DNA of 64,000 nucleotides, taken from NCBI RefSeq assembly GCF_003814915.1, contig NZ_RKQK01000001.1, positions 574,031 to 638,030 of the forward strand, read 5' to 3'. Positions 13,306 to 58,437 of this stretch are shown here, one piece after another. A program made the translations under genes and the position numbers. Each line of letters starts with the position of its first letter. Position 1 is the first letter of the stretch. A model generated the notes under the pieces. It did not search any database. It was not told the origin of the DNA and saw only the letters and a program-made list of their open reading frames with translations. This stretch comes from Pacificibacter maritimus (GTDB lineage Bacteria; Pseudomonadota; Alphaproteobacteria; Rhodobacterales; Rhodobacteraceae).

Positions 13306-16300
13306 CTATTCAGCCCAGTCAGCCGCTGGTTGCGATATCTCATGCGGGCTGAGTTCGCGGAAAATACCCACAATTTTGTCGGTTTCCCCCCAATGGTCCT
13401 GCCGAACTATTCCGTGGGATTCAATGTGAACAATTTCACCCGATCTGACCAATAAGCGGGCTCTAAATTTAAATTCGCCGCTTTCTGACCCGCGTGCGAC
13501 AATAGCTTTTACCCGATCAATGTCATCTGGGTGGTACATATTGATGGCCTCCTCGTATGGCGGCGCACCGTCTTCTATATTCACACGGTGGATTTTGAAC
13601 ACGCCTTCAGACCAGTAAATTTCTTTGGTTTTGGGGTCCAAAGTCCAGTAACTCAATCCAGCGATCTTCGGGATCGTCATAATTTGATCCAGCAGGGCAT
13701 CAGCGCGCTTATGTGCCATCTCAGTTTCGGTTAAATCAGTCGCAAATGTGTAGATTGTTGGCTCGTTCGTAACGGGCAAATTGTAGCGAAAACGGTGAAA
13801 TTGCAAATGATGTGATGATGATCCATCCAACGGCCCCAGTTCACCTTTGGTTGTTGGTGTTTTCGCCGTGTTGTTGAGAATGTTTCGGTCATCTTCACGG
13901 ATGCGATTTGCTTGATTTTCTGGGATAAGATCGTAGAGCGATTTTCCAAGTGCTGACGCGCGTGTTTCGCCGATGATCTTGGCGGCTTGTTCGGAAATAC
14001 GCAGAATTTTCCCATCTCGATCTCGGTTCATCAAAAGAACGCCTGACGAGTTCAAAATATGTTCGAGTTCTCGCGCCAAGCCTGGGAATTCTGACACAAC
14101 AATCGTGACGCCCAAAATTTGTCCCTGCGGTTCAAAATAAGGCGAGCACGTGATGATAACCTGTGTGCCGTTCGATGAAAATTCGGTGGACACAGTCTGC
14201 CCAAGCTTTAAGGCTTCGCCGCACATAGGGGCCAAGGCTGGATATTCCGTGGGCAGGGGAATTTGACTGATATGAGGACTGCCAATGGGTTGTTCGATGT
14301 TGAACATTTTCTTGGCCGCAGGCGTTGCTTGTCTCACTTGCAGCGCATAATCAGTCACCAAAATTGCCAAAGGCGTGCTTTGCAAGACTGAGGTCAATTC
14401 ACCCGTGCGACCGCTCAACTCAGAGGCCGTGACCTGCAATTCTTCATTGACGGTGATCAGTTCTTCATTGGTGGATTGCAGTTCCTCATTCGAGGTTTCC
14501 AATTCCTCATTGGTGGCTTGCAATTCCTCGTTGGTGGATTGCAGCTCTTCGTTCAAGGATTGCAGTTCTTCGTTGGATGTTTCCAATTCTTCAATTGTCT
14601 GCTGCAATGCATCGCGCGTTGTTGCGACCTCATTTTCAAGTGAGATGATGCGCTCGGACACTGCAACATTATCTTTGATCCCAAGCGTGTCCAAAGTGGT
14701 TGTCACGGGCTCCGACTTAAATGGGGTGAAGACCACCAAAGCCGCACGTTCATTGATTTGCGAGGCCACGATTGGGTAGACATCTAAACGAACTTCATCG
14801 CCCGATGCATTCGCCACAAGATGTCGCACGCCCGCTCTATGGCTTTTGTTTTTTAACGCGATGGTGACAAGGCTGCGGGCCTCTTCACGCAGCGGGCTGC
14901 GCAAAAGGTCGATGTGCATCTTTAGGTTGGTCGCAGAATTCATTTCGATATACGGGCTGATCGCCCCGTAAACGCGGGCAATACTGTAGTCCTCTGTTAC
15001 CAAAATTGAGTTTTCACCTAGAGATTGCACCAAGGCTTCGAACAACTGGCGATCTGTCGACGGCGCGTTTTCAGTGGCTTTCGTTCTTGGTGTACTGCGG
15101 CGTGAAATGGATGGCACTTGTGGCAAAGTGTAGGTCGGATCCTTTGAGACACTCAAGCCGCGTTTGTGATAGATATGAGGCGCAGACTTGTCGGCAACAA
15201 ACAGATTTTCACTGCCAGCAACGCTTTCAGCCGTTCCTAAAAACAACAAACCATGTGGCGGCATTGAGTAGTGAAAACGCGACATAACTTTTTTCTGCAA
15301 GTTATTTTCGAAATAAATCAATAAGTTACGGCAACACAAGAGGTCAATTTTTTGAAAGGGTGGATCCTGACAAACATTGTGGTCTGAAAATAAAATCACA
15401 TTTCGAATGCTATCGACAACGCGAATGCTATCGCCCTGATGGATAAAGTACTTTTCGGCAATATCATCAGGTATGTCATTCAAGGCGCTTGCGTTATAGG
15501 ATCCGCGCCGTGCAACCTGTAACGCATTTTTGTCGATGTCTGTTGCAAAAATCTGGACTTTGGATTTTAAAGCGTTCGTAGGTGTTCCCAATAGTTCGGC
15601 CAATAAAATGGCGATTGAATAGGCTTCTTCGCCTGTAGCACATCCCGCGATCCAGACCCGTAAAGGGCCGTCACCACGATCTGCGATTAATTTCGGCAGC
15701 AAGGCTTGCAGTTGAGCGAATTCTTCTTTGTCACGGAAAAATCGGGTCACTGAAATCAAGAGATCTTTGAACAAGTCATCGACAGCATGAGGGTTGGTGC
15801 GGCAAAACTGGGTGTATTCTTCTTGGCTTTCGATACCCAGTGCAACCATGCGCCGTTCAATCCGTCTGCCAATTGTCGCTTTCTTGTAGTCGCGAAAATC
15901 AACACGGGTGCGCGCCAGTAAGATTTGCAGCAGGTCCGTGATTGGAGATTCTACGAACTCGCCTTGCTGAAAATTAGAAAAATCATGCGAGGAGGTCAGA
16001 ATGTTATGCAAGTGAGGACCGATGTCTAGCGGGCGTAGAATGAGATCAATACAGCCTGTCGTAATCGCCGATTGTGGCATGCCATCATATTTGGCGCTTT
16101 CGGTGTCTTGGGCGATGGTGATTCCGCCGGCTTCGCGGATAGCTTGCACCCCGTATGCGCCGTCAGACCCTGTGCCAGATAGAATGATGGCCATGGTTCT
16201 TGCGCCGTGGCTCTCCGCAAGACTGATCAAAAAACGATCCACCGAAGGCTTGGCGATGGCTGGTTCTTTGCTTGGGTCAACCAAGTGAAGTTTGCCGTCA

Positions 16301-53292: not shown

Positions 53293-57602
<4,310 letters not shown>

Positions 57603-57640
57603 TCGAATTTCGATGTGTTGAATGCATTTTGTTCGCGAAT

Positions 57641-57655
57641 GTTCTCAAAAAGTTC
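57641..57655 (+). promoter_or_regulatory. LexA (SOS) box, GTTC-N7-GTTC
   Basis: A perfect direct repeat GTTC-TCAAAAA-GTTC, the LexA site of alphaproteobacteria such as Rhodobacter. A further GTTC lies at 57631-57634. The box is 39 bases after the recG stop and 69 bases before the start of the 40-codon gene, so that gene is the expected target. Confidence 0.8.
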
Positions 57656-57723
57656 TTTACAGAGCTTGTTAAAAATGAGAACAAAAGAACAACAAAGTGT
57701 TAACCAATCGAAAGGACGACAAG

Positions 57724-57846
57724 ATGATCAATGATTTGAAATCAGTAGTGACCCGGTCCCAAGGCACGCTCATCGAAGATATGCTTGGGGCAGCCGCTCT
57801 TTTGGTAATCTTATTCGGTGGATTGGTTGCACCTGCGTTTTTCTAA
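57724..57846 (+). CDS. SOS-associated small membrane peptide (40 aa), SidA-like candidate
   Basis: A 40-codon gene starting MINDLKSVVTRSQGTLIEDM, then one hydrophobic helix (LGAAALLVILFGGLVAPAFF) and TAA. AAAGGA lies about 8 bases before the ATG. A perfect GTTC-N7-GTTC box upstream and a strong terminator downstream define a one-gene SOS transcription unit. Caulobacter SidA is likewise a tiny SOS-induced inner-membrane protein that blocks division through FtsW/FtsN, so a similar role is a reasonable hypothesis. Sequence similarity to SidA is not claimed. A membrane-acting peptide of toxin type is an alternative. Confidence 0.75.
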   Translation: MINDLKSVVTRSQGTLIEDMLGAAALLVILFGGLVAPAFF

Positions 57847-57970
57847 AGTTTCTGCCTGATCCGAACGCGTAAATCCCATTCCATGTCCCAATAGAATGCC
57901 GCTGATACGCTTACCTGTCCCAATCAGCCAGCGCGCCTCATAGCGCTGACACGCCTTCGGATTTCACTAT

Positions 57971-58004
57971 GCCGCCGCCTTTTATAAGTGCGGCGGCTTT
58001 TTTT
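57971..58004 (+). terminator. Rho-independent terminator after the small SOS gene
   Basis: Perfect 8-bp GCCGCCGC/GCGGCGGC stem with an 11-base loop, followed by seven Ts. Its T tract overlaps the stop codon of the convergent scaffold gene. Confidence 0.9.
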
Positions 58005-58437
58005 ATGTGTCAACTTCCGCCAAGGCATTGTGAGCAGCCGTCAAGGAGAGCAAAATTGACGCATGCCTGTTTTTATACGCGCGCGCAGGCAAGAGAGCTT
58101 CGAAACCTTCAAACGGGGCCGTGGGCACAGGGCCATCTTCCTTTAAAAATGCTTTGAATTCGGTTAATGCGCGCTGCAATTCGGGCAGGGAGCGCCCGAT
58201 GACATTCTGGCCCACCACAGCCGCCGCAGCTTGACCCAAAGCGCAAGCTTTAACGTCTTGCGCAAACTCGGTGATCCGTCCGTTCTCCACGTTGATATCC
58301 ACCGTGATGGTCGAACCGCATAAGGGGGCACGTTCTCGAATGGTGGCATCAGCATTGTCCAATCGACCGAGATGCGGGATATCCGCAGCCAAGGCCAAAA
58401 GACGGTTAGAGTAGAGGGTCGCAAGGTCTGTCGACAT
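58003..58437 (-). CDS. IscU/NifU-like Fe-S scaffold protein, variant with two cysteines
   Basis: A 144-residue protein of the NifU N-terminal/IscU-SufU type. Two of the usual three ligand Cys are visible, in [14 protein letters not shown] and [16 protein letters not shown]. Where the third Cys is expected, the sequence is [13 protein letters not shown], which offers only a His. The ATG at 58437 begins the family domain; the frame is open further upstream. It is divergent from hisI with 64 bases between starts. It may serve as a sulfur or cluster carrier for SufS, whose operon lacks SufE and SufU, but this is inference. Confidence 0.85.

Follow-up and report, generated by a model that had tools for sequence, protein, structure and literature searches.

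Among the small proteins that bacteria produce upon DNA damage, SidA of Caulobacter crescentus is one of the closest to the subject of this study, as it is SOS-induced, comprises only 29 residues and interacts with FtsW (PMC4211646; statements on published systems refer to the consulted excerpts of the cited papers). Here, we analysed a stretch of 64,000 nucleotides (nt) of the Pacificibacter maritimus genome (contig NZ_RKQK01000001.1, positions 574,031 to 638,030; hereafter the window, in whose coordinates positions are given), in which recG is followed by a LexA-type operator, a 40-codon open reading frame (ORF), a structured RNA and a terminator. The ORF and the RNA are both conserved and adjacent, and would share a single transcript. 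We propose that the locus is a LexA-repressed, DNA-damage-inducible unit with a bifunctional message, giving rise to an inner-membrane peptide, perhaps SidA-like, and to a regulatory RNA; for this proposal as a whole, our confidence stays just short of even. Like SidA, the peptide would be a very short inner-membrane protein of an alphaproteobacterium under LexA-type control. It differs from SidA in its length of 40 residues, its polar N-terminal helix, its position after recG and the structured RNA behind it, and the likeness is one of description.

YneA, SosA and ChiZ are longer than the peptide encoded here and unrelated to it in sequence. Their likeness to it lies in the pattern of small damage-induced membrane proteins acting late in division (PMC13396833). 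YneA acts on FtsW via its membrane helix, and a low-confidence prediction suggests the same for SosA, ChiZ and SidA (PMC13396833). In contrast to the peptide, YneA and ChiZ carry a LysM domain, and the excerpts of that paper describe no RNA part for any of the three (PMC13396833). As these SOS-induced small membrane proteins act on the late divisome, a septation checkpoint is our leading guess for the peptide.

SgrS/SgrT, in which a small ORF is combined with a regulatory segment, is one dual-function RNA with which the locus can be compared. Another is VcdRP, a single RNA that encodes a 29-residue protein and pairs through a segment in which four cytosines are required (PMC8672173). The likeness lies in a short transcript, here a presumed one, that joins a small ORF to a regulatory RNA segment, and the difference in control, as VcdRP is CRP-repressed whereas our unit has an SOS operator (PMC8672173). 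TisB/IstR-1 of E. coli resembles it as a LexA-controlled small hydrophobic peptide with a regulatory structure in its message; in that system, however, the structure occupies the 5' part and the antitoxin is an RNA of its own, while here the structure lies downstream on the same strand (PMC11575346). Within the Rhodobacter/Roseobacter family, to which the window belongs, Pos19 of Rhodobacter sphaeroides (PMC5036791) and UdsC (PMC9779115, PMC8625941) are small RNAs (sRNAs) that contain a small ORF or derive from a 3' untranslated region (3'UTR). UdsC differs in being RpoHII-dependent and 67 nt long (PMC9779115, PMC8625941), and the excerpts describe no tie of Pos19 or UdsC to recG or LexA (PMC5036791, PMC9779115, PMC8625941). 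The main texts of the family sRNA studies PMC5036791, PMC9779115, PMC8625941, PMC5107571 and PMC4809877 do not mention recG, and those of PMC9779115, PMC8625941, PMC5107571 and PMC4809877 do not mention LexA. A description of a peptide or RNA locus downstream of recG, or an experiment on it, was not found in the literature searched.

The recG-downstream locus and its operator

An initial annotation, made from the letters of the window, had described a compact SOS-controlled peptide unit behind recG. The elements of the locus are as follows:
55509-57602, plus strand: recG, the conserved upstream neighbour, with 121 nt from its stop to the peptide ATG
57631-57655, plus strand: LexA-type operator GTTC-N6-GTTC-N7-GTTC, with the canonical GTTC-N7-GTTC at 57641-57655 (GTTCTCAAAAAGTTC)
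57656-57682, plus strand: promoter-like elements, TTTACA (57656-57661) and, after 15 nt, GAGAAC (57677-57682)
57712-57716, plus strand: ribosome site AAGGA, 7 nt 5' of the ATG, read directly
57724-57846, plus strand: 40-codon ORF (MINDLKSVVTRSQGTLIEDMLGAAALLVILFGGLVAPAFF), ATG at 57724, stop at 57844-57846
57849-57970, plus strand: structured RNA in the 3'UTR, from folding and covariance model R2
57971-58004, plus strand: intrinsic terminator, a GC-rich stem (57971-57997) followed by seven T
58003-58437, minus strand: convergent SufU/NifU-like gene, meeting the terminator from the opposite side (context only)

On direct reading, the GTTC-N7-GTTC box was exact where it had been placed, and the ribosome site, the ATG, the 40 codons and the stop all agreed with the initial annotation, as did the strong terminator with its GC-rich hairpin and seven T. 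The compact unit stood as far as box, ORF and terminator are concerned. Its 3' half had been read as an empty stretch with a terminator, but a conserved structured RNA is encoded there. Besides this folded RNA, the third half-site GTTC at 57631-57634 and the TTTACA abutting the box had been overlooked. Comparison of sequences gives solid support to the putative transcription unit and to its SOS-type operator. The product of the convergent gene scored below the curated cut-off of the SufU model and above that of NifU_N.

By number alone, the box is significant neither in the window nor in the genome: two exact GTTC-N7-GTTC were counted in the window against 1.84 expected, and the 70 matches genome-wide stay below the reversed-pattern controls (91+108). 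The other exact match in the window (14050-14064) lies inside an ORF of 1088 residues, CheB/CheR-like by eye, and is probably a chance occurrence. Since these counts were no better than chance, the evidence was moved to conservation at the locus, for which we used 110 loci, i.e. 30 from the peptide search and 80 recG loci, with at least one organism in both sets. An exact GTTC-N7-GTTC was found no more than 165 nt from the peptide start at 109 of the 110 loci, but only in 15 of 18,443 random 165-nt windows, which were drawn from the same loci and are mostly coding. The three half-sites GTTC-N6-GTTC-N7-GTTC are present at 102 loci, TTTAC directly 3' of the box at 101 and GAACAAA in the promoter region at all 110, while TTGAC replaces TTTAC in at least four relatives (G020, G117, G164, G218). 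The initial annotation had stated beforehand that a lack of conservation of frame or box in close relatives would speak against it; both proved to be conserved by a wide margin.

Within the conserved region, TTTACA would serve as the -35 element and GAGAAC would belong to the -10 region, an assignment which we infer from the sequence. A consensus sigma-70 scan picked up a promoter-like site on neither strand, passing over the conserved elements of the locus as well, and no search was aimed at antisense RNA. Further downstream, a TTAACC stretch recurs in the 5'UTR, at 57699-57705 in the window and in most of the loci of its genus (L002-L018); we take it to resemble a CtrA half-site, which could tie the unit to the cell-cycle regulator.

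Extended to 198 genomes of the family, a search for GTTCN7GTTCTTTAC gave 141 exact boxes, 125 of which sit 67-115 nt (median 79) 5' of a peptide, when paired with the 150 listed profile matches. In the 25 genomes with a listed peptide but without this exact motif, follow-up revealed an N7 box in 20. Behind 10 of the 12 boxes from genomes without a listed peptide lies a diverged peptide (weakest E 2.3e-4), and three additional genomes picked for the TTGAC variant (G020, G117, G218) all have both box and peptide. Altogether, box and peptide occur together in at least 158 of the 198 genomes, the other 40 of which were examined only in part.

We found alike boxes at other genes of the SOS response. 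GTTC-N7-GTTC lies within 350 nt upstream of lexA at 31 of 31 loci (own genome and its 30 best relatives), oriented opposite to the gene; each of these loci has at least one box that begins with GTTCT, as the peptide box does. In the own genome, recA and uvrA carry a GTTC-N7-GTTC box each. These boxes lend good support to the LexA control of the unit claimed in the initial annotation, and on this comparative evidence we regard such control as very likely. As three half-sites in tandem are found at many operators (13 of 31 lexA loci, there with N7+N7 spacing, and most peptide loci, as given above), binding of more than one LexA dimer is suggested.

The survey of genomic boxes covered 40 stretches around the 70 matches, which were picked by eye, are mostly A+T-rich and do not make up the full regulon. 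Two observations from it are recorded here. A radical SAM gene of the PA0069 family (L061, C1:455090-457400 of the own genome) has an exact box 18 nt before its start and is, to judge from this sequence, likely a further SOS gene. At L070 (C1:1377400-1379430), an exact box precedes an ORF of 101 residues by 17 nt, followed by an ORF that is helicase-like by eye; the pair is possibly another SOS operon.

Absence of a LexA match was also compared with absence of a peptide match. A peptide match is absent in 5 of 13 genomes without a LexA match, compared to 11 of 185 with LexA (P = 0.0016), and, in good assemblies, in 3 of 5 compared to 10 of 169 (P = 0.003). We give little weight to this link, since missing contigs and diverged peptides confound it (G020 is a false negative).

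The 40-residue peptide

A profile built from 24 members (A1) matched 182 of 198 family genera at E ≤ 1, the best 150 of them at E 2.5e-7 or better. An order-wide search gave 142 of 149 entries at E ≤ 0.01, but the 149 entries it covered are all from the Rhodobacter/Roseobacter family. In a class-wide sample of 337 genomes, the five found at E ≤ 0.001 among the matches listed belong to this family, too. Three genomes from other families (G037, G045, G051) gave faint matches (E 0.8-1.1), which we attribute to chance. As to genomic context, recG is present at 30 of 30 peptide loci, and the peptide follows recG on the same strand at 80 of 80 recG loci, which are the best 80 of 582 RecG candidates and thus biased to close relatives.

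Selection on the encoded protein was computed for 87 orthologues of exactly 40 codons. In pairs of 70-98% identity, synonymous differences (pS 0.549) clearly exceed nonsynonymous ones (pN 0.120), with pN below pS in 189 of 190 pairs, which are not independent of each other; reading off-frame reverses the relation. Differences at codon positions 1, 2 and 3 number 1424, 479 and 3460, respectively. A chance ORF is ruled out by the pN/pS values with their off-frame controls, and translation of the ORF into a peptide appears to us, from these sequence comparisons, nearly certain. A longer form of 49 residues could start from GTG at 57697; as the start codons of the A1 members align with the ATG at 57724, the 40-residue form was kept.

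M1, D19, G22, L34 and P37 are invariant in the alignments A1 (24 sequences) and A6 (58 sequences). The single transmembrane helix of the initial annotation was borne out as a prediction: the hydrophobic stretch covers residues 21-39 (Kyte-Doolittle mean 2.3), and AlphaFold2, run with 58 sequences, places helices at residues 2-11 and 13-39 (mean predicted local distance difference test score 90, predicted template modelling score 0.49). The peptide is hence predicted to consist of a polar N-terminal helix and a C-terminal hydrophobic membrane helix. Searched against Pfam, NCBIfam, PHROGs, PADLOC and PDB, it had no credible match; the best of the weak ones were to DUF2124, with one of the 24 members (E 0.16), and to a PHROG, with one member (E 0.26).

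Could such a peptide act like TisB instead of on septation? It would then insert in the inner membrane, lower the proton-motive force and slow growth or favour survival, with the RNA limiting its production. This depolarisation is the main rival to the septation checkpoint, and we judge it to be unlikely. In the hydrophobic half, K, R, D and E are absent from positions 21-40 in 87 of 87 orthologues, while a charged residue is important for TisB, whose K12L variant triggered no aggregation (PMC11575346). D19, G22, L34 and P37, conserved at 99% across the 87 orthologues, look more like a fixed site for a partner than like part of a pore peptide under loose constraint, and the downstream, same-strand position of the RNA argues in the same direction. 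A septation checkpoint remains our leading guess for the peptide.

The structured RNA in the 3'UTR

The stretch of approximately 124 nt between stop codon and terminator is conserved beyond what a spacer would show. In the window, its predicted fold starts with an unpaired UUUCUGCCU at the 5' end, followed by a closing stem (57858-57870/57951-57963) that encloses three hairpins:
57877-57898, plus strand: predicted hairpin with loop UGUCCC (57884)
57901-57928, plus strand: predicted hairpin with loop CCUGUCCC (57914)
57929-57948, plus strand: predicted hairpin with loop GCCUC (57935)

Together with the terminator, the fold of the window has a z score of -6.91. Without it, the mean z score against dinucleotide shuffles is -2.35 (n = 101), and 84% of the sequences fall below -1 and 61% below -2. 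The 3'UTRs used here are those of the 110 loci minus seven, for which no terminator was found by the script (leaving 103), and minus two more that were too short (leaving 101). The loop sequences themselves recur: in the 103 3'UTRs, CTGCCTG occurs 116 times against 3.8 expected and CTGTCCC 105 times against 3.6, whereas the reverse complement of either was not found in them. For a looser set of C-rich motifs, the average is 3.9 per 200 nt downstream of the stop, compared to 1.3 inside recG (110 loci). In the predicted folds, the bases of the C-rich motifs are unpaired with a probability of 0.74, compared to 0.40 for the rest (n = 99).

The pairing was then examined in alignments. In a MAFFT alignment of the genus, both partners have changed in four of the seven pairs of the closing stem (GATCTGA/TCAGATC) and in 6 of the 17 pairs of the whole structure, against 1.3 in shuffles, scored on a structure that was derived from this same alignment. 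As family-wide MAFFT folding gave the terminator alone, a model-based alignment was used. A first covariance model (R1), built from 12 sequences of the Ruegeria group with the terminator left off, matched 57 of 95 sources at E ≤ 1, 49 of the 57 being outside the training set; the sources, 643,031 bases in total, were the window plus 94 loci from the set of 110. Every match fell on the correct strand into the 3'UTR slot of the peptide gene; the window itself was not matched. In the model-fitted alignment, 25 of 26 pairs have two-sided changes (172 cells against 44 when shuffled and 23-53 when slid), a result biased upward as the alignment was fitted to the structure. A second model (R2), built from the 57 matches of R1, found 62 of 73 sources, once each, among them the window, where its match spans 57849-57975 (E 0.027) and coincides with that of L001, which is the same place. 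In a class-wide search of 190 genomes it matched two, both from the Rhodobacter/Roseobacter family and outside the training set, in each case in the 3'UTR behind the peptide. Rfam 15 gave no match at gathering score in 20 loci (141,613 bases), and for window positions 57560-58060 its best E was 0.13, far below the gathering score of that family. The GC-rich stem of the terminator is conserved in alignments A2 and A3; a simple terminator scan omitted it, probably due to a bulge in the stem. These comparisons give good support to the structured RNA, which seems to be new, and we regard it as highly probable that this RNA is functional.

How much of the locus is accounted for by this RNA? In one alternative it would be the main product, an SOS sRNA with C-rich loops that pair with or sequester RNAs or a protein, and the peptide would be secondary. 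The loop motifs do stay constant in sequence, in contrast to the closing stem with its compensatory changes, and VcdRP, one RNA that both encodes a protein of 29 residues and contains a pairing segment, offers a precedent (PMC8672173). Weighed against the strong protein-level selection on the ORF and against the loci at which the peptide is kept where the RNA is short or unrecognised (L018, L188, L251), this alternative seems unlikely to us. Another alternative restricts the 3' structure to action in cis: it would guard the message from decay or control its own translation, keeping the output of peptide tight and short-lived. The location of the RNA fits, as all matches of the models fell into the 3'UTR behind the peptide ORF, upstream of the terminator. 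However, the RNA pairs with its own leader (-28.2 kcal/mol) no better than with the leaders of other species (-28.7 kcal/mol; P = 0.11), and stretches taken at random from its locus pair with it more strongly (-39.3). Moreover, mere stability would not need conserved loop sequences. Autoregulation by pairing with its own leader is not supported by these energies, and we regard a role confined to cis as rather improbable, more so than the preceding alternative. We return to a message in which peptide and RNA would both have a function.

Proposed mechanism and its meaning for the family

For such a bifunctional message, we infer binding of LexA, induction, co-transcription, insertion and orientation of the peptide in the membrane, a division block and an action of the RNA; the box, the conservation, the selection on the coding sequence and the structure of the RNA are what the computation shows. 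In undamaged cells, LexA would sit on GTTC-N6-GTTC-N7-GTTC, abutting the -35 element, and block the promoter, which would be freed when DNA damage leads to RecA-driven cleavage of LexA. A message of approximately 310-320 nt would then extend from just past GAGAAC to the terminator. The peptide would enter the inner membrane by its C-terminal helix and probably leave its polar N-terminal helix on the cytoplasmic side. In the manner of SidA, YneA or SosA, it might restrain a protein of late division or of the septal wall, such as FtsW, during DNA repair. Such a target in division or the septum is a tentative assignment by analogy, for which our confidence is well below even. The folded RNA would be processed into a regulatory RNA or act as part of the message, tuning the same response at the message level; that the C-rich loops might act in trans or bind a protein is a guess after VcdRP. 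We also consider it possible, though somewhat doubtful, that the whole family shares an SOS bifunctional RNA behind recG, by which LexA would release together a septation-halting membrane peptide and a C-rich multi-hairpin RNA that would reprogram other messages in the course of DNA repair.

Several points weigh against this proposal. The role in division is drawn from analogy only. On the side of the operator, five of the 25 peptide genomes checked lack an exact GTTC-N7-GTTC (one of the five has GTTC-N6-GTTC-N6-GTTC and one a single-base variant), and in L261 (G200), a genome without LexA match that is 80% complete, the peptide lies behind recG with no GTTC-N7-GTTC there. Of the 13 genomes without a LexA match, eight keep a peptide match at E ≤ 1; five of these assemblies are less than 90% complete, three are not. 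On the side of the RNA, both covariation scores carry the bias given with them, further pair types in the genus alignment were not above shuffles (140 of 500 were as high), and family-wide MAFFT folding of 26 sequences yielded the terminator only. R2 missed 11 of its 73 sources and, under stricter filters, its own genome at E ≤ 0.01. Within 200 nt downstream of the stop, no more than one C-rich motif is present at five of the 110 loci, and L251, L254, L262, L269 and L275 have none (L269 stops at a contig end).

For the question of how alphaproteobacteria other than Caulobacter halt division after DNA damage, the locus provides a candidate checkpoint with an SOS operator across the Rhodobacter/Roseobacter family, Ruegeria (L209) included, and as candidate and operator are present there, the question becomes directly testable. 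If the proposal is true, a protein checkpoint and a riboregulator would be joined in one damage-induced transcript, and with such a coding and regulatory RNA the SOS response would reach beyond proteins into riboregulation.
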